DNA of 64,000 nt from Halobacteriovorax marinus SJ (GTDB lineage Bacteria > Bdellovibrionota > Bacteriovoracia > Bacteriovoracales > Bacteriovoracaceae): assembly GCF_000210915.2 (NCBI RefSeq), contig NC_016620.1, positions 124,001 to 188,000 of the forward strand, given 5' to 3'. Shown here piece after piece: positions 27,278 to 54,208 of this stretch (position 1 is its first letter; each line of letters starts with the position of its first letter). A program made the position numbers and the translations under genes. The notes beneath the pieces were generated by a model that was not told the origin of the DNA, did no database searches, and was given only the letters and a program-made list of their open reading frames with translations.

Positions 27278-29875
27278 ATGAACCATACTCATATAACTAT
27301 TAAGGGAGCGAGAACTCATAATTTAAAAGATGTTGATGTTCGCTTTGCTTTGAATTCTATTACGTGTATTGCTGGTCCTTCTGGTTCAGGAAAATCATCT
27401 TTGGTTTTTCATGCTATTCTTACTGAGTCTAAAAGACGCTTCATGAATTCATTTCCAAATGATGTTAAGTTCTTTTGGGATATTCCTCAGTCTGCAGATG
27501 TTGATGAGATTTTTCCTGTTCTTCCGGTTTGGGGACTCGCTCAAAATAATCCAGTAGTTGGTTCTAGGCCTAGTGCTTTTGATTTAATGGGGATTGGGGA
27601 TGTTCTCTCTAAAATGCTTTTCTATTTGGGGAAAAGTTATTGTTCATCTCATCACATTCCTCTGGAGTCTTCTGTAACCGTAAGAGGTGTCAAAGATTTC
27701 CTTTATGATCAGGAGTTGGGTGATAAAGAAATTATTCACTTCTTCTTAGCATCTGATGACTACTTAAAAATTCATGGTGAAGGCTTCTACCCGGCAAGAT
27801 CTTTTAAAGAGACTGTTGGGGAATTTGAAAAAAGTGATCCCTACTGGGAGCTTTTTAGAATAAGAACTTCTAAGATTGAAAGTGTTTCAAAGAAGCTTTC
27901 GGAGTTGGGCCTATCCGAAGTGGATGGTTCAATACTTGTTTTTATTCCCTCTCTTGGACTTCAGCAAGCATTCACAATTAGTAAGAATAAGCAGTGCCGA
28001 AAATGTGGAGAAAAGGAAAATATAAAAATTACTTCGCCATCGAATTTTTCTCCATTTACTCCCTTGGGAGCTTGTGTGAGGTGTTCTGGTCATGGACGTA
28101 ATTTAGAGTACGATAGGTCCAAAATTGTTAAAGATGACCGACTCTCTCTTAAAGAGGGTGCTGTAAACTTTCTAACATATTCGCGCTTTTCTCATATAGG
28201 GCCGGTAATGCTTAGAGAGGCAAAGAAAAATGGTATAGATGTCACTGTTGCGTTTAAAGATTTAAATCAGAAGAAGGTATGGAACTTTCTTGAAAATGGT
28301 TCTGGGCAATATGGTGGATTATTTGAGCTCTATGATTACTTAGAGTCAAAGAGATATAAGAAGAATGTAAGAATATTGATTCGTTCACTTAAGACAGAAG
28401 TACTTTGTGAGGAGTGTAGTGGAACAAGACTTAAGAGTGATCTTTTAAAGGTAAGAATTCCTGAGATTAAAAAGTATTCACTAAGAGATATTTTACTCTT
28501 CAATTTTAATGAACTTTCTGAATTTATAGAGAATATAAAGAGCATTAAGGATGAGTTTGAGAATTGGAATGAAGTAAAAAAAATAATTTCTACTATTGAT
28601 CGAACTCTAAAGGTAGCTCTAGACCTTGGCTTAGGAGGACTCTTGTTACAAGATAAAGTGAAGAGCCTCTCTATTAATGATTACCAGAAAATTCTTTTAG
28701 TCAAATATTTATCGTTCGAAGGTTCAGGTTCTCTTTTCATACTTGATGAGGCGAGCCTTTCACTAGACTCCACTGAAGTAAAAGTTCTCTTTAAATATTT
28801 ACAGAAACTAAAAAAAGCTGAGAATACCATTATTCTTGTTGATCATAATGATTACTTACAGAGTAAGTGTGATGAGTTGATCTTAATGGGCCCTGGTGCA
28901 GGACATCTTGGTGGTGAGATTACTTATCAAGGGAAGTTTAAGAAAGAAAAGCTAGAAAGAATCGCAGAAATTGAAAAGAGAAAGCTTAAGAGGACAGTAA
29001 TTAGCGGTGTTAGTTTTAACAATATAGAAAATAAAGAGATCAGCTTTGCTTCAAATGGTGTGACTCAAGTTAAGGGAAAAAGCTACTCTGGCAAAAAAGA
29101 TATTTATATTGAGGCCTTGGCCAATATTGTAAGTGAAGTTCTTGGGCTAGAGAAAATTACATCAAAAGAAGTACAGTTTAAAAGACCTAAAAATCTCTTC
29201 GATTTTCAAAGAGTACTCGTTCTTAATGCAAAATTTAATAAGGTGAGCTCGAGATCCACAGTAGGCACAATGATTGGACTTGCTCCTTACCTTCGAAAGC
29301 ATTTCGCATCTCTTCCGGTTTCAAAGAATTTAAATTTAAAGGACGGGCACTTCTCTCCTAATTCGGACTTAGGTAAATGTACGACATGTGAAGGGCGAGG
29401 TGTATTAAATATAGATATGCAGTTTTTGGAAGATGTTCAGTTAATGTGTGATGACTGTAATGGAATGAAGCTAAAACCATTTATTGCAACGATTTCAGAT
29501 GGGTATCACACTGTCCATGAAACATTTAATCTTCCTATGAGTGAGGTGCTTGGAAATTTAAAATTAACACCGAAGGGGAAGAGGATTTGGGAATATCTTA
29601 AACTTTTAAACCTAGACTACTTGAGTTTAGATAGACCTCTAAGCTCACTTTCTGGTGGAGAGAAGCAAAGACTTAAGCTCTTGTCAGAGCTTCAAAGTAA
29701 GGTTGAGAATTCACTTATTATTTTTGAAGACCTATCTTTTGGCCTTTCTAGAAGGGAGATCTTGCGCTTGGGTGAGTTTGTTCAAGATCTCTGTACAAAA
29801 GGAAATACAGTCATTTTAGTCGATGAAAATGAGCATTTTTCAGATTTTGTGGACGAAATTCAGATTTTTGAATAA
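27278..29875 (+). CDS. UvrA paralog with one intact and one degenerate ATP site
   Basis: 865 residues with the full UvrA layout: Walker A GPSGSGKSS at 33-41, a first zinc module (CRKC ... CVRC near 240-270, with FSPFTPLGACVRCSGHG), CEECSGTRL near 375, a second zinc module CTTCEGRG ... CDDCNG (about 700-730) and an NBD2 signature LSGGEKQR near 790. NBD1 has an intact Walker B (LFILDEA near 485) but its signature is LSINDY. NBD2 has a ruined Walker A (GKSYSGKKD near 600) and Walker B FED where LDE is usual. One composite site is therefore complete and the other lost. True UvrA is longer (about 940) with both sites intact, so this is a divergent paralog, perhaps in DNA repair or toxin resistance. 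Confidence 0.85.
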   Translation: MNHTHITIKGARTHNLKDVDVRFALNSITCIAGPSGSGKSSLVFHAILTESKRRFMNSFPNDVKFFWDIPQSADVDEIFPVLPVWGLAQNNPVVGSRPSAFDLMGIGDVLSKMLFYLGKSYCSSHHIPLESSVTVRGVKDFLYDQELGDKEIIHFFLASDDYLKIHGEGFYPARSFKETVGEFEKSDPYWELFRIRTSKIESVSKKLSELGLSEVDGSILVFIPSLGLQQAFTISKNKQCRKCGEKENIKITSPSNFSPFTPLGACVRCSGHGRNLEYDRSKIVKDDRLSLKEGAVNFLTYSRFSHIGPVMLREAKKNGIDVTVAFKDLNQKKVWNFLENGSGQYGGLFELYDYLESKRYKKNVRILIRSLKTEVLCEECSGTRLKSDLLKVRIPEIKKYSLRDILLFNFNELSEFIENIKSIKDEFENWNEVKKIISTIDRTLKVALDLGLGGLLLQDKVKSLSINDYQKILLVKYLSFEGSGSLFILDEASLSLDSTEVKVLFKYLQKLKKAENTIILVDHNDYLQSKCDELILMGPGAGHLGGEITYQGKFKKEKLERIAEIEKRKLKRTVISGVSFNNIENKEISFASNGVTQVKGKSYSGKKDIYIEALANIVSEVLGLEKITSKEVQFKRPKNLFDFQRVLVLNAKFNKVSSRSTVGTMIGLAPYLRKHFASLPVSKNLNLKDGHFSPNSDLGKCTTCEGRGVLNIDMQFLEDVQLMCDDCNGMKLKPFIATISDGYHTVHETFNLPMSEVLGNLKLTPKGKRIWEYLKLLNLDYLSLDRPLSSLSGGEKQRLKLLSELQSKVENSLIIFEDLSFGLSRREILRLGEFVQDLCTKGNTVILVDENEHFSDFVDEIQIFE

Positions 29876-29916: not shown

Positions 29917-29943
29917 TAAAGTTTTGTCAGAAATACCCGATAA
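29917..29943 (+). promoter_or_regulatory. Sigma-28 (FliA) promoter of the metalloprotease operon
   Basis: TAAAGTTT (29917-29924), an 11-base spacer, CCCGATAA (29936-29943). Against the FliA consensus TAAAGTTT-N11-GCCGATAA only one base differs. It lies 30 bases before the ATG at 29974. Confidence 0.75.
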
Positions 29944-29973
29944 TATAGATAGGGTAAAGCTTAGGACAAAACT

Positions 29974-30714
29974 ATGTTTCAAAAATTTCTAATACTATTT
30001 CTCTTTCTAAATGTGAGTGTGTTTTCCACAACTTTCATTCCTCTATCACTAGACAAGCAGCTTGAAGATGCGAACGGTGTCTTAAGAGCGAAGTTCTCAA
30101 GTCTTGAATATAAGAAAGTCTCTAATGATAGAATAATTACTGAAGCGACATTTAAAATTGTTGAGAGTATTGGAATAAAGCAAAGTGAGATTATCAACAA
30201 GAATAACTTTAAAGTTATTTATCCTGGTGGAAAGTGGCAAGATCTAGACTATAGAGTTTCTGGAGCACCAAGCTTTAAACCAAATGAAGAAGCCCTTTTA
30301 ATTTTGAAGAAAACTTCAATGGGTTACGCCGTAAAAGGCCTAGGCATGGGGAAGTATAAAATTATAGAAACAGAGGATGGAGAATTTTATCAATCTTCTG
30401 TATTTCCAAAGCACCCGTCCCTAGGAAGAATTACAGAAAATGATTTTGACTCTGCTCTAATAAGAAAATTTGGTGCAGATCTTCAAAAAGTTAAATCAGA
30501 TAAATTCGTAAATATTCCAGTTCAAAAAGAGGTTGTTGAAAAAAATAAGTCTGGTCGCTTCCCTGCTAGTGTCGAAAGAGGGCCAGCACAAGTCGAACTC
30601 GACTCAACGAAAGAGGCATCGCAGTCCTCTAATCCAATTTGGATCGTTGTTCTCTTCTCTTTATTGGGGGCGATTTCTGTCTATACAATAAGAAGGTCTA
30701 AGGGCCATAAGTAA
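29974..30714 (+). CDS. Secreted protein with C-terminal membrane tail, partner of the metalloprotease
   Basis: 246 residues: signal peptide (about 1-18, ending VFS), a soluble beta-rich domain (about 20-170), a polar linker (about 180-215) and a C-terminal hydrophobic helix (about 219-238) followed by RRSKGHK. That tail keeps the protein in a membrane or serves as a sorting signal. SD TTAGGA lies seven bases from the ATG. The stop overlaps the metalloprotease start by one base (TAATG), so the two are coupled. The sigma-28 promoter upstream suggests coexpression with flagella. The family is not recognised. Confidence 0.7.
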   Translation: MFQKFLILFLFLNVSVFSTTFIPLSLDKQLEDANGVLRAKFSSLEYKKVSNDRIITEATFKIVESIGIKQSEIINKNNFKVIYPGGKWQDLDYRVSGAPSFKPNEEALLILKKTSMGYAVKGLGMGKYKIIETEDGEFYQSSVFPKHPSLGRITENDFDSALIRKFGADLQKVKSDKFVNIPVQKEVVEKNKSGRFPASVERGPAQVELDSTKEASQSSNPIWIVVLFSLLGAISVYTIRRSKGHK

Positions 30715-32510
30715 TGAATAGACTATTAATTACATTAATATTTTTCTTCAGTGCTACTGCGCACTCGTATGTAATTAATAGAACAGAAAGTGGTGAGATC
30801 ATTAAGTGGAGTTCTTCAAAGAATATAAATCTTTTTCTTTCAACATCAACGCCAGACTTATCCAGTATAGATGTAAATAGCATCGTAACAAGTTCAGTTG
30901 CCGAGTGGTCTTCGAGAGTTAGTAATCAAGTTAATCTTGTGACTAGCAACGACGGCGCGGTTAGTGGTCGTAATGATATTTACTTTCAAAGTGATGATGA
31001 GTTCTTTAGTGATTCCTCAATCGTTGCGGTCACTCAGTACATAGTTAATTCAAATACAACATATATTCATGAAGCAGATATCATTCTCAATGATTCTATT
31101 TATACATTTTCATCTAATAATCTAGATACAGAATACTTAGGAAATGTGCTTACACACGAAATGGGACATCTACTTGGAATGGGTCATAGTCAGGTCATTG
31201 AATCATCTATGTATTATGAGCTTAGAAAGGGACAGGCAACGTTGCATGGAGATGATGATAGTGGAATTAGATACCTCTACGGATCTTCAACTCTTGGAAC
31301 AATAAGCGGAACAGTTGCTGGAGGTAAGGATGCTCTCTCTGTTTTTGGAGCTCACGTTACTGCATTTAGTTTACAAACAGGGGAGATTGTCTCTGCCGCA
31401 GTAAGTGATTCAAATGGTGATTTTACAATTAGTAACCTACCTTTAAATGATACTTACTTCCTTTATACTGAACCTCTTAATAACTTGGGTTCACTTCCAA
31501 ACTATTATAGTGTGGCCAAGAAGGATTACTGTGATTCGAATCAGGACTATAAGGGTTCTTTCTTTCAGCGCTGCTTTGGAAGTGATAGAGGAAATCCTTA
31601 TGGAATAAAAGTAAACTCTTCAAATAAGAATATAAATGTAGGAACAGTTTCGATAAGATGTGGGCTTGATGTTCCTGGTGATTATAATAGGGCGAAAGGA
31701 AGTAGCTATGACATTTCTCTCGTCTCTTCTGACATTAATAATTACTATGTAGGTAGCTCAAGTGTCGGTTATTTTAATTCTAGAATAGATGCAGGGACAG
31801 TAAAGTTTGACGATGTAGAAGATGAGTACAACCTAGATCTGTCTTTATATGATCTTTATACGTACTTTCCTGGAAAATCACTCTATCTACAAGTACAAGT
31901 TCATACACAGCCATTCTTCTCTCCACTAAGAATTGTTACAACTTTGGATCATGATGATTTTATGACTCCTTCTGTTTATCCAAATCTTGGAGCTCCAATT
32001 GATGTTGATGAAAATGGAAACTACAATGTAGATGTAAAATTAAATTTACCTCTCTATGCAGATAGAACTAAGAATCAATACTCTTTAAAAATTGCTCCAC
32101 ATAATATTGATCAATTATATGGAACAAGCGTTGTTGCGAATATCTTTTCTACAGGACGATATAATTATAATGAAAGTAGACACTTTTATTTTATAACAAC
32201 TAGGTTAGTCGAAAAGGTTGGTACTGATTATCTACCGGTGAGCGAAAAGAATTATGGGGAGCTTACTGATAATAGTAGCTGTCTTGATGCAAGCTCAACG
32301 TATCAAGTTACAGGAAATGTTGTTGGCTCAAGTGCTGAGACACTTAGAAAGTCAGTAAAGAAAGAAGACTCCCTAGGTCTTGCTTGTGGGTCAGTACTTT
32401 ATGTTGATAACTCATCACCTCCAGGGAATGGACCACTCGCGTCACTGACTTTGGTCGCAATTTTTATGCTTTTATCTATAAAATTCAATTCTTCTAAGAT
32501 AGTTGAATAA
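30714..32510 (+). CDS. Secreted matrixin-type zinc metalloprotease
   Basis: 598 residues: signal peptide (about 1-18), metzincin catalytic domain (about 20-190) with HEMGHLLGMGH at 148-158 (three zinc His, catalytic Glu149) and a Met-turn Met in ESSMYY about ten residues later. A carboxypeptidase-regulatory-like beta domain follows (about 193-265), then beta-rich domains with several cysteines. The C-terminus has SPPGNGPLASLTL and a hydrophobic helix (about 570-588) ending in polar and basic residues, a tripartite tail like a sorting or anchoring signal. It probably acts at the cell surface. In a predator a role in prey wall or protein degradation is attractive but is inference. Confidence 0.85.
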   Translation: MNRLLITLIFFFSATAHSYVINRTESGEIIKWSSSKNINLFLSTSTPDLSSIDVNSIVTSSVAEWSSRVSNQVNLVTSNDGAVSGRNDIYFQSDDEFFSDSSIVAVTQYIVNSNTTYIHEADIILNDSIYTFSSNNLDTEYLGNVLTHEMGHLLGMGHSQVIESSMYYELRKGQATLHGDDDSGIRYLYGSSTLGTISGTVAGGKDALSVFGAHVTAFSLQTGEIVSAAVSDSNGDFTISNLPLNDTYFLYTEPLNNLGSLPNYYSVAKKDYCDSNQDYKGSFFQRCFGSDRGNPYGIKVNSSNKNINVGTVSIRCGLDVPGDYNRAKGSSYDISLVSSDINNYYVGSSSVGYFNSRIDAGTVKFDDVEDEYNLDLSLYDLYTYFPGKSLYLQVQVHTQPFFSPLRIVTTLDHDDFMTPSVYPNLGAPIDVDENGNYNVDVKLNLPLYADRTKNQYSLKIAPHNIDQLYGTSVVANIFSTGRYNYNESRHFYFITTRLVEKVGTDYLPVSEKNYGELTDNSSCLDASSTYQVTGNVVGSSAETLRKSVKKEDSLGLACGSVLYVDNSSPPGNGPLASLTLVAIFMLLSIKFNSSKIVE

Positions 32511-32585: not shown

Positions 32586-33059
32586 ATGAGAAAATGGATT
32601 TTTTCAATTATTATTTTAAGTTTATCAATTACTTCTTTCGCTCAAGATTTAATGGGGGAGAGGATTCGTCGAGTTTCAGGTACAAAGAAATCTGTATATT
32701 TTGATAGCGGTATTTTCCACAATGGTGGACCTAAGCGTAAGTCTTCTCTTAAGGCCGTAAGACACTCTTACACTGAAAAAAGAGGGTATGAGAGAGTCGT
32801 ACTTGATTTTGAAACGAAAGAGATACCTAGAGTCTATGGGAATATTTCTTCTAGTGAGAAGAAACTCTATATAGACCTATTTGATACAACCATCAAGTCA
32901 ATGGCGGACTCATTTGGAAAAAGTAAGTTCGTTGAAGACATTAAATTCTTTCCTATAAGCAAAGATTCACTTTCAGTAGAGATTACATTTAACAAAGTTG
33001 TAAATGTCGATATCTTCTACTTGAATTCACCAGGTAGACTGGTTTTTGATATTAAATAA
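32586..33059 (+). CDS. Periplasmic AMIN-domain-like protein
   Basis: 157 residues: signal peptide (about 1-19, ending SFA) and one AMIN-like beta domain (about 58-157) with YERVVLDFE and a C-terminal PGRLVFDIK, the same pattern as the N-terminal domain of PilQ and of amidase targeting domains. AMIN domains bind peptidoglycan and localise proteins in the envelope. It has no catalytic domain. It lies 13 bases upstream of lon and shares its promoter, though a functional link with Lon is not evident. Confidence 0.7.
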   Translation: MRKWIFSIIILSLSITSFAQDLMGERIRRVSGTKKSVYFDSGIFHNGGPKRKSSLKAVRHSYTEKRGYERVVLDFETKEIPRVYGNISSSEKKLYIDLFDTTIKSMADSFGKSKFVEDIKFFPISKDSLSVEITFNKVVNVDIFYLNSPGRLVFDIK

Positions 33060-33072
33060 TTAAGGAGACATC

Positions 33073-35559
33073 ATGTCAGATCATGAAAATGATTATCAGG
33101 TCGAAATTAGACCGAGCGATATGGATGAAACAACTTTCCCTGAGTCAGTTGTTATTATCCCAATTATGAATAGCCCTATTTTTCCAGGGATGATTGCACC
33201 AATTATTTTAACAGAAGATAAATTTACACCAGAGCTAGATGAACAATTATTAAAGACTGGTTACATTGCTCTCAATCTTGTTAAGTCAGACTTAAAGGAT
33301 GAGTCTGGACAATTTGTTCCAGAAGAAGAGTTAGACTTAGAGTCGAGAGAGATTTCATCTAAAGATATCTATAAAGTCGGTGTGCTCTGTAAAGTCGTTA
33401 AGAAATTAAAGTTACCAGATGGTTCTGTGAATATTTTAGTTCATGGGATTAAGAGATATAGAGCATCAAATATTTCTCAAGAGGCACCTCTTATTTTAAC
33501 TAAGATTGATGTTTTCGAAGATATTTTAGAAACTGATGAAGAGCTTGATGCTTACACTAGATCGGTTATTAACCAAGTTAAGAAATTAAGTGAGATCAAT
33601 CCATACTTCAACGAAGAGATGAAGCTTGCTATGCTTAATCCTCCTTCGCCAGGTGCTCTTGCTGACTTAGTCGCATTTGCAATTTCACTAGATATTCCAG
33701 AGGCTCAAGACTTCTTAGAAACTCTTGTTGTAAAGAAGAGATTTGCAAAGCTCTTAGTTTACTTAAAAAGAGAAAAAGATGTGGCTGATATTCAGAAGAA
33801 AATCTCTGATGAAGTTAATGATAAAGTTAATAAGTATCAAAGAGAATACTTTTTAAGAGAGCAGTTAAAGGTCATTAGATCCGAACTTGGAATGGATGAG
33901 GATGAGAAGTCTCGTGACTTAAAAAGAATGCGCGAGCAAATAGAAGAGGCCAATCTTCCTGAAGATACAGTGAAGTCTATAAATGAAGAGCTAGATAGAT
34001 TAGAAGTTATTCCTGACTCTTCTCCAGAATATAACGTTGCTAGAACTTATATTAATTGGATGTTGGACCTACCATGGGATAAATCAACAGATGATAAAGT
34101 TGATATGCCTATGGCAGCAAAGATCCTTGAAAAAGATCATTACGGTTTAGAGAAAGCTAAAGAAAGAATTTTAGAATTTTTAGCCGTGAGAAAATTAAAG
34201 CCAGGATACGACGGAACAATTCTATGTCTTTCTGGTCCTCCTGGTGTTGGTAAGACTTCACTAGGTAGAAGTGTTGCTGAGGCACTTGGAAGAAAGTTCT
34301 ATCGCTTTAGTCTTGGTGGAATGAGAGACGAAGCAGAAATTAAAGGTCATAGAAGAACATACGTTGGAGCAATGCCAGGTAGAATCATTCAGGCATTGAA
34401 GAGAGTAGAAGTTAATAATCCTGTTATCATGCTGGATGAAATCGATAAGCTTGGTCAATCTTTCCAAGGTGATCCTGCTTCTGCGCTACTTGAAGTTTTA
34501 GATCCTGAGCAGAACTCAACTTTTATCGATAACTATCTAGATATACCTTTTGATCTTTCAAAAGTTCTCTTCATTGCTACGGCCAATTACTTAGGTGATA
34601 TTCCTGAGCCTCTATTGGATAGAATGGAAGTCATTGAGCTAAGTGGTTATACGATTGAAGAGAAAGTTTCAATTGCAACAAAGTGGGTAATTCCTAAGCA
34701 GCTTAAGAAGCACGGTCTAGTGAAGAGTGATTTCTCTTTATCAGCTTCTGTATTAAAGAAGCTAATTTCTGATTATGCTAGAGAGCCTGGTGTAAGGATT
34801 ATGGAGCAATACGTAGCTAAGCTATGTAGAAAAGCAGCTCTTCTTAAAGTGAATGCTAAGAGAAAGGCGAAGAAGTTTTCTCCTTCTCCTGCAGACCTAG
34901 AGAAACTTGTTGGAAGTGCACGCTATCAAAGTGATGTTGCACAGAAAGCAGTTAAACCAGGTGTAGTAACAGGTCTAGCGTGGACATCTTTTGGTGGAGA
35001 AATTCTCTTTATCGAGACTTTACCACTTTCTGGAAAAGGTGGATTTAAGTTAACTGGTCAGTTGGGAGACGTAATGCATGAGTCTGCAAACTTGGCCTAT
35101 AGCTACGTTAAGAAAATCCTTCAAGATGAAATTGAAGCAGAACTTAGTAAAAAGCCTAAGAAGAGAACTAAAAAAGATGCAGATGAAGAAATGCCAGAGG
35201 ATTATCTTTCTGAGCACGAAGTTCATTTACATTTACCTGCTGGAGCGACACCAAAAGATGGGCCAAGTGCAGGTATAACAATGGCCTTGGCACTTTATAG
35301 TTTAGCTACTAATAAGAAGATTAGACCACAGTTGGCGATGACTGGAGAGTTAAGCTTAACTGGAAAAGTCCTTCCTGTCGGAGGAATTAAAGAGAAGGTT
35401 CTTGCAGCAAAGAGAGCGGGAATTAAAGAAGTTATTATTCCGAAAGATTGTGAAAAGGATTTAAAAGAAGTTCCTGACAGACATAGAAAGGGGCTTAAGT
35501 TCTACCCAGTAGAGCATTTTGATGAAGTCTTAAAGATAGCATTTAAAAAGAAGAGATAA
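33073..35559 (+). CDS. lon: ATP-dependent protease Lon
   Basis: 828 residues: N-terminal substrate-binding domain (about 25-230, VVIIPIMNSPIFPGM), AAA+ module with Walker A GPPGVGKTS near 386 and Walker B VIMLDEIDKLG, and the protease domain with catalytic Ser in PKDGPSAG (about 728) and Lys in GGIKEKVLAAKRAG (about 771). A Lys/Glu-rich insert (about 690-715, KKPKKRTKKDADEE) interrupts the start of the protease domain and is not seen in the E. coli enzyme. SD AAGGAG precedes the ATG. It degrades misfolded and regulatory proteins in the cytoplasm. Confidence 0.96.
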   Translation: MSDHENDYQVEIRPSDMDETTFPESVVIIPIMNSPIFPGMIAPIILTEDKFTPELDEQLLKTGYIALNLVKSDLKDESGQFVPEEELDLESREISSKDIYKVGVLCKVVKKLKLPDGSVNILVHGIKRYRASNISQEAPLILTKIDVFEDILETDEELDAYTRSVINQVKKLSEINPYFNEEMKLAMLNPPSPGALADLVAFAISLDIPEAQDFLETLVVKKRFAKLLVYLKREKDVADIQKKISDEVNDKVNKYQREYFLREQLKVIRSELGMDEDEKSRDLKRMREQIEEANLPEDTVKSINEELDRLEVIPDSSPEYNVARTYINWMLDLPWDKSTDDKVDMPMAAKILEKDHYGLEKAKERILEFLAVRKLKPGYDGTILCLSGPPGVGKTSLGRSVAEALGRKFYRFSLGGMRDEAEIKGHRRTYVGAMPGRIIQALKRVEVNNPVIMLDEIDKLGQSFQGDPASALLEVLDPEQNSTFIDNYLDIPFDLSKVLFIATANYLGDIPEPLLDRMEVIELSGYTIEEKVSIATKWVIPKQLKKHGLVKSDFSLSASVLKKLISDYAREPGVRIMEQYVAKLCRKAALLKVNAKRKAKKFSPSPADLEKLVGSARYQSDVAQKAVKPGVVTGLAWTSFGGEILFIETLPLSGKGGFKLTGQLGDVMHESANLAYSYVKKILQDEIEAELSKKPKKRTKKDADEEMPEDYLSEHEVHLHLPAGATPKDGPSAGITMALALYSLATNKKIRPQLAMTGELSLTGKVLPVGGIKEKVLAAKRAGIKEVIIPKDCEKDLKEVPDRHRKGLKFYPVEHFDEVLKIAFKKKR

Positions 35560-52262: not shown

Positions 52263-53111
52263 ATGGGACTTCGTATTAACACAAATGTTGCGTCACTTAA
52301 TGCACAAAGAAATCTAAGTGGTACGCGTATCAACATGAACAAGTCGTTAGAGAAACTATCGTCTGGTCAAAGAATTAACAGAGCTGGTGACGATGCCGCT
52401 GGACTCGCAATTTCAGAAAATTTAAAAGCACAGATTAAAGGTCTTGGACAAGCAAAGAGAAATGCTGAAGATGGTATCTCTTTAGTTCAAATTGCTGAAG
52501 GTGCCTTAGGGGAAGTATCAAATATACTAATCCGTCTTAGAGAGCTCTCAGTACAGGCCGCTTCTGATACTATCGGAGCAACAGAGAGAAAATTTCTTAA
52601 TGTTGAATTCGAGCAATTAACATCAGAGATGGATAGAATTGCAAACTCTACAGAGTTTAACAGAGTTCCACTACTAAACGGAACTGGAGCAGTATTTGAT
52701 ATTCAGATCGGAACGAGAAATGACCCTATAAGTGATAGATTAACTTTTGATGCTTCAAGCGCAGACGTTAACGTTGCCGCTTTAGGATTAAATCTTGCTT
52801 CTGTAGCTGACAAGATCTCATCTCAGAACTCATTGTCTTCAATTGACTCTGCGATTGTATCTGTATCAGGTATTAGAGCTGACTTTGGTGCTTTACAAAA
52901 TAGACTTCAATCAACAATTAACAACATTGCTGTAAGTGTTGAGAACCTTTCTGCTGCTAACTCAAGAGTTAGAGACACAGATATCGCTGCAGAGACTGCA
53001 GAGTTAACTAAGCAGAATATCTTAATGACAGCTGGTACATCAGTTCTATCTCAAGCGAACTCTAGTACAAAGAACGCCTTAAGCTTAATTCAATCAGCCT
53101 CTCAAGGGTAA
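52263..53111 (+). CDS. fliC: Flagellin 1
   Basis: 282 residues, a compact flagellin with only the D0 and D1 domains. The N-terminus MGLRINTNVASLNAQRNL and SSGQRINRAGDDAAGLAISE, and the C-terminus RVRDTDIAAETAELTKQNIL..A.TSVLSQAN, are standard. Exported by the flagellar apparatus and assembled into the filament. The ATG at 52263 lies five bases after AGGAGG; an out-of-frame ATG overlaps that spacer. In BALOs several flagellins build one sheathed filament; the second copy follows at 53375. Confidence 0.95.
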   Translation: MGLRINTNVASLNAQRNLSGTRINMNKSLEKLSSGQRINRAGDDAAGLAISENLKAQIKGLGQAKRNAEDGISLVQIAEGALGEVSNILIRLRELSVQAASDTIGATERKFLNVEFEQLTSEMDRIANSTEFNRVPLLNGTGAVFDIQIGTRNDPISDRLTFDASSADVNVAALGLNLASVADKISSQNSLSSIDSAIVSVSGIRADFGALQNRLQSTINNIAVSVENLSAANSRVRDTDIAAETAELTKQNILMTAGTSVLSQANSSTKNALSLIQSASQG

Positions 53112-53374: not shown

Positions 53375-54208
53375 ATGGGAATGAGAATAAATACTAACGT
53401 ATCGTCGCTATCAGCACAAAGAACGTTAAGTACTACAAACAGAAATATGAACGACAACCTGAGGAAACTTTCTTCAGGAGAGAGAATAACTAGAGCTGCG
53501 GATGATGCAGCAGGACTCGCTATAAGCGAAAACTTGAAGGCCCAGATTAGAGGGATGCGACAAGCAAAGAGAAATGCAAACGATGCAATCTCCCTAATCC
53601 AGACAGCTGAAGGTGGTTTAAATGAGATTTCAAACATTATTATCAGACTTAGAGAACTCTCAGTACAAGCTGCCAACGACACACTTGGACCAGAGGAAAG
53701 AAAGTACTCTGACATTGAATTCCAAAACCTTAAAGAAGAGATTGACAGAATCTCAAGGTCGAGTGAATTCAACGGAGTTAAGCTACTCGATGGAACAGGT
53801 GGGAGAATGGAGTTTCAGGTCGGTATTCACAATGATCCAATCAACGATAGACTCGTCTATGATGGAACTGGATCAGATGCTACGATCTCAACTCTTGGGC
53901 TTTCAGCAGATAATGTTGCCTCTAAAGAGGGAGCTCAGTCTTCTCTACAAAAACTTGATGATGCACTTGTGCAAGTCAATGGAATTAGGGCCAATATGGG
54001 TGCCCTACAAAACAGACTCTCGTCAACTGTTAACAACTTGGGGATCAGTGATGAGAATTTAAGTGCGGCTAAGTCAAGAATTAGAGATGTAGATATCGCT
54101 GCCGAAACAGCAGAGTTAGCTAAAAACAACATCCTAATTCAATCTGGAACATCAGTGTTATCGCAAGCTAACCAGTTCCCGAGCATAGCCAACAAATTAC
54201 TTGGTTAA
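53375..54208 (+). CDS. Flagellin 2
   Basis: 277 residues, D0-D1 flagellin similar to flagellin 1 throughout; N-terminus MGMRINTNVSSLSAQRTL, and RIRDVDIAAETAELAKNNIL near the C-terminus. The last residues (NQFPSIANKLLG) differ from copy 1, which ends STKNALSLIQSASQG, so they are not a recent duplication. It has its own leader with an upstream five-codon frame and ends before a strong terminator. Confidence 0.95.
   Translation: MGMRINTNVSSLSAQRTLSTTNRNMNDNLRKLSSGERITRAADDAAGLAISENLKAQIRGMRQAKRNANDAISLIQTAEGGLNEISNIIIRLRELSVQAANDTLGPEERKYSDIEFQNLKEEIDRISRSSEFNGVKLLDGTGGRMEFQVGIHNDPINDRLVYDGTGSDATISTLGLSADNVASKEGAQSSLQKLDDALVQVNGIRANMGALQNRLSSTVNNLGISDENLSAAKSRIRDVDIAAETAELAKNNILIQSGTSVLSQANQFPSIANKLLG

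Follow-up and report, generated by a model that had tools for sequence, protein, structure and literature searches.

The DNA analyzed here, a stretch of 64,000 nucleotides from Halobacteriovorax marinus SJ (contig NC_016620.1, positions 124,001 to 188,000; the window), contains a site resembling the promoters of the flagellar sigma factor FliA (sigma28) in front of two nonflagellar genes. As the sequence-only reading had stated, the first of these genes encodes an exported protein and the second a metalloprotease; the former, of 246 amino acids, we call SEC1, and the latter is a matrixin (Table 1). The two genes share a stop/start overlap, suggesting that SEC1 and the protease are translationally coupled, and the SEC1 start codon lies 30 nt downstream of the FliA site, on the plus strand.

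Among the 59 relatives searched, 28 family genomes carry a homolog of SEC1, and the order SEC1, M10 protease, AMIN-domain protein is kept in 27 of the 28, with the Lon gene next in nearly all. Eight family genomes in which the first search had not found SEC1 were tested; seven of them also lack a full-length protease, and in the eighth, where the protease is present, a diverged SEC1 was found upstream. SEC1 stands without an adjoining protease in G015, G050, G082, G162, G175, G138, G127, and G170 (the last on a short contig), which speaks against a strict one-to-one pair; all seven genomes of this kind that were searched hold at least smaller metzincins elsewhere. Upstream of the operon, an 865-amino-acid UvrA-like protein with only modest UvrA domain matches is encoded (window positions 27278 to 29875), as it is in many relatives; in others it is absent from this place.

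Table 1. Features of the SEC1-protease locus (window positions)
Feature	Position	Strand	Basis
FliA (sigma28) -35 element, TAAAGTTT	29917..29924	+	Sequence; kept in family
FliA -10 element, CCCGATAA, core CCGATAA	29936..29943	+	Sequence; kept in family
Likely ribosome-binding site, AGGA	29963..29966	+	Sequence and inference
SEC1, 246-aa protein of predicted TIMP/NTR fold; signal peptide, TM anchor at the C terminus, no cysteine	29974..30714	+	Fold model; no Pfam/NCBIfam match
SEC1 signal peptide, predicted cleavage VFS|TTFIP	29974..30027	+	Simple -3/-1 heuristic
Predicted NTR/TIMP-like domain, residues 19-168; T-T-F-I-P over TIMP residues 1-5	30028..30477	+	Model and structure alignment
Linker motif R-F-P-A-S, residues 195-199, in disordered linker	30556..30570	+	Alignment
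SEC1 C-terminal transmembrane helix with basic tail	30637..30702	+	Model and sequence
TAATG stop/start overlap, SEC1/protease	30712..30716	+	Sequence
Matrixin metalloprotease (M10) of 598 aa, lacking a pro-domain and ending in a hydrophobic segment	30714..32510	+	PF00413, MMP fold, HEMGHLLGMGH
Zinc site HEMGHLLGMGH	31155..31187	+	Key residues invariant in family
Met-turn M166	31209	+	Invariant in family
Carboxypeptidase-regulatory-like beta-sandwich domain, behind catalytic domain	31299..31460	+	PF13620 3.2e-6, under the Pfam cut-off
Exported AMIN-domain protein, neighbour kept in relatives, read-through possible	32586..33059	+	Domain match, synteny
Lon protease, conserved neighbour	33073..35559	+	Synteny

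The promoter and its conservation

The description of the site at 29917 to 29943 as a near-consensus FliA promoter was correct: it reads TAAAGTTT-N11-CCCGATAA, a single mismatch from the E. coli FliA consensus TAAAGTTT-N11-GCCGATAA, and in core terms TAAAG-N15-CCGATA, which is the sigma28 spacing. It is the sole site in the window with three or fewer mismatches to that consensus, but since about 1.0 such site per window is expected by chance, a tally at this level is uninformative by itself and was dropped as evidence (93 sites genome-wide versus 69 for the reversed pattern). At the stringent end, the count exceeds chance. A scan of the whole genome (3.44 Mb) returned no perfect, eight one-mismatch, and eight two-mismatch sites, with no one-mismatch and two two-mismatch sites in the reversed-pattern control. 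All but one of the eight one-mismatch sites lie 16 to 64 nt upstream of an open reading frame start, and the reading frames behind them encode, among others, a GAF-HD (HD-GYP-like) protein, an OmpA-like coiled-coil protein, a lipoprotein-like protein, and a further exported protein, as would suit a regulon of nonflagellar attack-phase genes. The single off-consensus base at the SEC1 site, a C for a G, falls at a position that is essentially free in the family (G in 23, A in 19, T in 18, and C in 8 of the 68 family loci), in a logo that is partly circular, as its sites were picked by score.

Two further observations from the genome scan concern other genes. The one-mismatch site of the GAF-HD gene (L005, G000:C1:1882265, reverse strand) lies 34 nt upstream of it, a possible link between FliA and c-di-GMP turnover. 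Two flagellin genes in the window (52263 to 53111 and 53375 to 54208) have no recognizable FliA site, with five to six mismatches at best within 600 nt, and two other flagellin genes (C1:83804 and C1:84920) have weak candidates with five and four mismatches; some flagellins of H. marinus SJ may depend on another sigma factor.

Conservation was assessed by scoring the 160 nt upstream of SEC1 for a FliA-like motif (TMAAGTTT, 11 to 13 nt, CCGATAA; threshold of at least 10). In the first set, this threshold was reached in 26 of 29 loci, versus zero to two loci for each of the control genes of the same regions (S9, uvrA-like, M10, AMIN, and Lon) and a mean of 0.85 loci for shuffled sequences. Forty extra family loci, independent of the setting of the score, gave 38 at the same threshold, with 5% in far-upstream, 2.5% in opposite-strand, and 5% in shuffled controls. 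Once start codons were corrected, 65 of the 68 family loci carried the motif, mostly 7 to 43 nt from the start codon, compared with 0 to 7% in all controls (other genes of the loci, far-upstream regions, the opposite strand, and shuffles). The ortholog comparison, which had been set beforehand as a check on the promoter, thus found the FliA-type motif at the same place across the family. Because of this conservation, FliA control of the operon is well supported, and we consider the sequence at 29917 to 29943 almost certainly a genuine FliA promoter.

Within the family, the second base of the -35 element varies between C and A, and spacings of N15 and N16 occur in 34 loci each. Both the alternative bases and the two spacings fit the attack-phase consensus TTAAG-N16-CCGATA of Bdellovibrio, which is given for 92 of 140 attack-phase promoters (PMC3627812). 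Outside the family, only 1 of the 20 loci tested has the motif (in G062). This genome belongs to family f2, in which three genomes (G037, locus L089; G062, locus L195; and G045, locus L198) carry fliA itself before the SEC1 homolog, either immediately upstream or with one gene in between. These fliA genes match TIGR02479 with 228 to 262 bits; the gap between fliA and the SEC1 homolog is 15 nt in G037, and in G062 the FliA-type site lies between the two genes.

Several loci show additional elements near the promoter. In L065, L067, L068, L069, L072, L079, and L087, a second element, approximately C[CT]GATAAAAT-x-AG, stands directly upstream of the FliA -35 element. It could serve as an operator or as another promoter; the single case inspected has no -35 partner for it at sigma28 spacing. 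Inverted repeats (e.g., CCCCCATGAAT...ATTCATGGGGG) flank the FliA -10 element in L085 (G017) and L086 (G012), possibly as an operator or a leader hairpin. Loss of FliA in G029 was considered as a natural experiment and dropped: its altered -10 element, CCGAAGG, is similar to -10 boxes of relatives that do have FliA, and the assembly is broken into 240 pieces.

The genome of H. marinus SJ has a fliA gene (C1:589392-590060; TIGR02479, 269.6 bits versus a cut-off of 189.6). According to two studies of Bdellovibrio bacteriovorus, FliA is there the master regulator of the attack phase, including nonflagellar proteases and surface proteins, is essential, and drives the TAD pilus operon in an E. coli reporter (PMC3627812; PMC5430801). 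Motile-phase control of the operon described here is therefore expected rather than surprising, and the promoter is a new member of an already known type of regulon. That regulon belongs to a different family, and the SEC1-M10 operon is not described in the parts of the two studies that were consulted (PMC3627812; PMC5430801). Flagellar control of a motile-phase surface or attack function, as proposed in the sequence-only reading, thus stands as far as a conserved FliA-type promoter before a nonflagellar exported pair, in a genome with a FliA gene, is concerned; what that reading missed were the fold and the membrane anchor of the protease's partner. Expression of the pair in the attack phase, its location at the cell surface, and a function in attack would be in line with such control.

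The matrixin protease and SEC1

The metalloprotease proved to be an M10 matrixin (PF00413, 1.1e-13, 51.8 bits versus a cut-off of 24), and the H/E/G/H/M positions of its zinc site and Met-turn are invariant in 27 homologs. Foldseek places its predicted fold closest to the catalytic domains of matrix metalloproteinases (MMPs); the second-ranked match is karilysin as it stands in its complex with PotA (PDB 8b2q). The catalytic domain starts about 12 residues past the signal peptide, and no conserved cysteine precedes the zinc site; the protease therefore lacks a pro-domain and a cysteine switch. We do not call it an animal-type MMP, because the pro-domain with the cysteine switch typical of that label is absent from its sequence. 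All 27 homologs match the catalytic core of NCBIfam NF041905 (MXAN_2677/2678 myxosortase-dependent metalloprotease), although the window protease stays far under the curated cut-off (31 versus 250 bits).

The C terminus is hydrophobic in both the protease and SEC1. For the protease, sorting by a GlyGly-CTERM/rhombosortase system was considered and rejected: no rhombosortase exceeded the cut-off, only a subthreshold generic rhomboid match was obtained (48.4 versus 84 bits), and the search also gives a signal in all 14 control genomes.

SEC1, called a secreted protein in the sequence-only reading, is indeed exported, but its C-terminal transmembrane helix would keep it anchored in the membrane, and it has a predicted TIMP/NTR fold, the TIMPs being the proteins that naturally inhibit animal collagenases. 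At the sequence level, no Pfam or NCBIfam family covers it, a SEC1 profile found no match among PDB sequences, and the family search found no TIMP (PF00965) at an E value of up to 1. The NTR profile matched only 1 of 30 members (E = 0.044), as did NCBIfam MYXO-CTERM (0.005). Since SEC1 has no cysteine at all, it has no lipobox, no Cys-x-Cys, and no domain disulfides. Most members examined from the phylum share an N-terminal start of the form A/S|[TSA]-[TS]-[FYI]. Loss of this motif in genomes without the protease was tried as a proof of inhibition and discarded, as most of them keep A-T-S-F.

The AlphaFold2 model of SEC1, built with 30 homologs, has a pLDDT of 95 to 98 over the domain. Against the PDB, the best 13 Foldseek matches of this model are all TIMPs (E values of 0.002 to 0.016, probability 1.00). 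In VIA-align comparisons with isolated N-TIMP domains, Z scores were 9.5 to 10.7 over 115 to 118 residues, with N-TIMP-3 at 10.7 (3.1 A, 118 residues) and N-TIMP-1 at 9.5 to 10.0. The NtA domain of agrin ties with TIMP (10.0 to 10.5), and complement NTR domains come near; the fold is thus that of the NTR class, the score cannot separate TIMP from NtA, and the fold alone implies no inhibition. PotA does not rank within the top 50 fold matches of SEC1, a result that does not count against a related mechanism.

A further result concerns the register of the alignment. The N-terminal segment of TIMPs binds the MMP zinc through its free amine, and residues 1 to 5 of TIMP-1 are C-T-C-V-P. Residue 19 of the SEC1 model falls on TIMP residue 1, and the predicted signal peptide also ends at residue 19, so that the predicted mature start, T-T-F-I-P, would overlay this segment, with Thr19 as a candidate zinc-chelating free N terminus. 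We do not class SEC1 as a TIMP, as neither the cysteines nor sequence similarity were found on testing, but it may work like one.

Possible function of the pair

A TIMP-like fold beside a protease shifts the likely function of the locus: rather than just two exported proteins, it would make a protease and its cognate partner. The enzyme encoded next to SEC1 belongs to the class inhibited by TIMPs, and this form of it has no latency of its own. On balance, we think it probable that this is a FliA-driven attack-phase operon in which a TIMP-like partner holds a matrixin without a pro-domain inactive. FliA RNA polymerase would transcribe the two genes in the motile attack phase. SEC1 would be exported by Sec, and the cut by signal peptidase I would free the N terminus Thr-Thr-Phe-Ile-Pro, while the C-terminal membrane helix would hold the protein with its NTR domain outside the cytoplasm. 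From the translationally coupled second gene would come the matrixin, which, for want of a pro-domain, has no built-in latency. SEC1, produced first, might then dock with its N-terminal edge in the protease's zinc cleft, keeping the enzyme inactive within the predator's own envelope. Release would occur at contact with prey, through delivery of the protease, displacement of SEC1, or cleavage of SEC1 at the linker motif kept in the family. Among the points against this scheme, SEC1 has no sequence similarity to TIMPs and lacks the disulfides that shape the TIMP edge, agrin NtA scores equally well, some genomes hold SEC1 with no protease beside it, and outside the family the motif is present at only 1 of the 20 loci.

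One objection to this scheme is that the FliA motif is a chance match, or the site of another sigma factor, and that the operon is not under FliA control. The number of sites with up to three mismatches expected per window lends it some plausibility, as do the two flagellin genes of the window without a recognizable site, which suggest that the match to consensus is not the sole determinant. The excess of one-mismatch sites over the reversed control and the fixed place of the motif in the family render it highly improbable. An ordinary attack-phase pair is a rather unlikely but more serious alternative, in which the NTR domain of SEC1 acts as an adhesive or scaffolding domain in the manner of agrin NtA, or displays the protease at the membrane, without any inhibition. 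The tie between NtA and TIMP and the genomes with SEC1 but no adjoining protease would suit such a role; the family-wide coupling of SEC1 to an MMP-fold protease without a pro-domain, and the register of its mature N terminus with TIMP residue 1, argue against it.

SEC1 could also be a substrate and effector of the matrixin, which would cut the linker and shed the NTR domain to act on cell walls or prey, just as Listeria Mtz cleaves and releases the TIMP-like lipoprotein Tim (PMC8235301). The SEC1 linker is indeed disordered (pLDDT of about 50 to 60) and carries an R-x-[PIVL]-A-S-like motif in 28 of 28 family members, and the residue that comes next is often hydrophobic. Together, motif and residue resemble the Pro-x-x-hydrophobic cleavage preference of MMPs. 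However, the residue after the motif is nonhydrophobic in 11 of the 28, the motif is absent from the two members of other families in the alignment, and SEC1 also occurs without the protease. We regard a substrate role as unlikely in itself; cleavage of this kind is compatible with inhibition followed by release.

Inhibition of the matrixin by SEC1 remains our preferred reading. In a more specific form, which we offer tentatively and at somewhat less than even confidence, the Bdellovibrionota would own an inhibitor with the TIMP mechanism, a disulfide-free, membrane-tethered NTR protein whose N terminus, made by signal peptidase, blocks a cotranslated matrixin without a pro-domain, giving a predation weapon and its safety catch switched by the flagellar sigma factor. 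H. marinus, a marine predator of bacteria, may thus both arm itself with a collagenase-like enzyme for attacking prey and hold that enzyme in check while it swims and hunts.

Comparison with known systems

New here is what the operon encodes, a TIMP-like protein beside an MMP-type protease under flagellar control; in the literature collection searched, nothing relevant linked Bdellovibrio and TIMP. Potempins of Tannerella forsythia are small outer membrane lipoproteins, and the inhibitor gene is reportedly located upstream of that for the MMP-like protease, with the beta-barrel inhibitor held at the membrane. The potempin A-karilysin pair (PDB 8b2q) shares with the SEC1 locus this arrangement, in which the gene of a membrane-held inhibitor (putative in the case of SEC1) stands ahead of an MMP-like protease gene; SEC1 is a transmembrane-anchored protein without cysteine. 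With the animal TIMPs (N-TIMP-1, -2, and -3), SEC1 has in common the predicted NTR/OB fold and an N terminus in register with theirs; it differs in having no cysteines, no detectable sequence similarity, and a membrane anchor, and it is a putative inhibitor.

In Listeria and other Gram-positive bacteria, pairs of metzincins and TIMP-fold proteins have been described, by authors who knew of no earlier bacterial TIMP-like proteins (PMC8235301). Listeria Mtz-Tim resembles the pair described here in that a secreted metzincin and a TIMP-fold protein anchored in the membrane are encoded side by side. Tim is a lipoprotein with an acylated and hence blocked N terminus, is encoded by the second gene, is phage derived and under CI/Cro control, and is cleaved by its protease (PMC8235301); SEC1, in contrast, is encoded by the first gene behind a FliA promoter, has a C-terminal transmembrane helix, and would gain a free N terminus by the predicted signal peptidase I cut. 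We liken SEC1 and its matrixin to Mtz-Tim as a pair that may work similarly, not SEC1 to Tim as a homolog. If our reading is true, an entire family of predators has an extracellular protease that is kept under control and tied to a motility sigma factor, and TIMP-style inhibition of MMP-type enzymes is placed in free-living Gram-negative predators. It would then be directly testable whether such inhibition arose more than once and how an armed predator avoids digesting its own envelope. The SEC1 operon would also be a second bacterial pair of a TIMP-fold protein and a metzincin, unlike the Listeria lipoprotein in having a free N terminus, as in the animal TIMPs.
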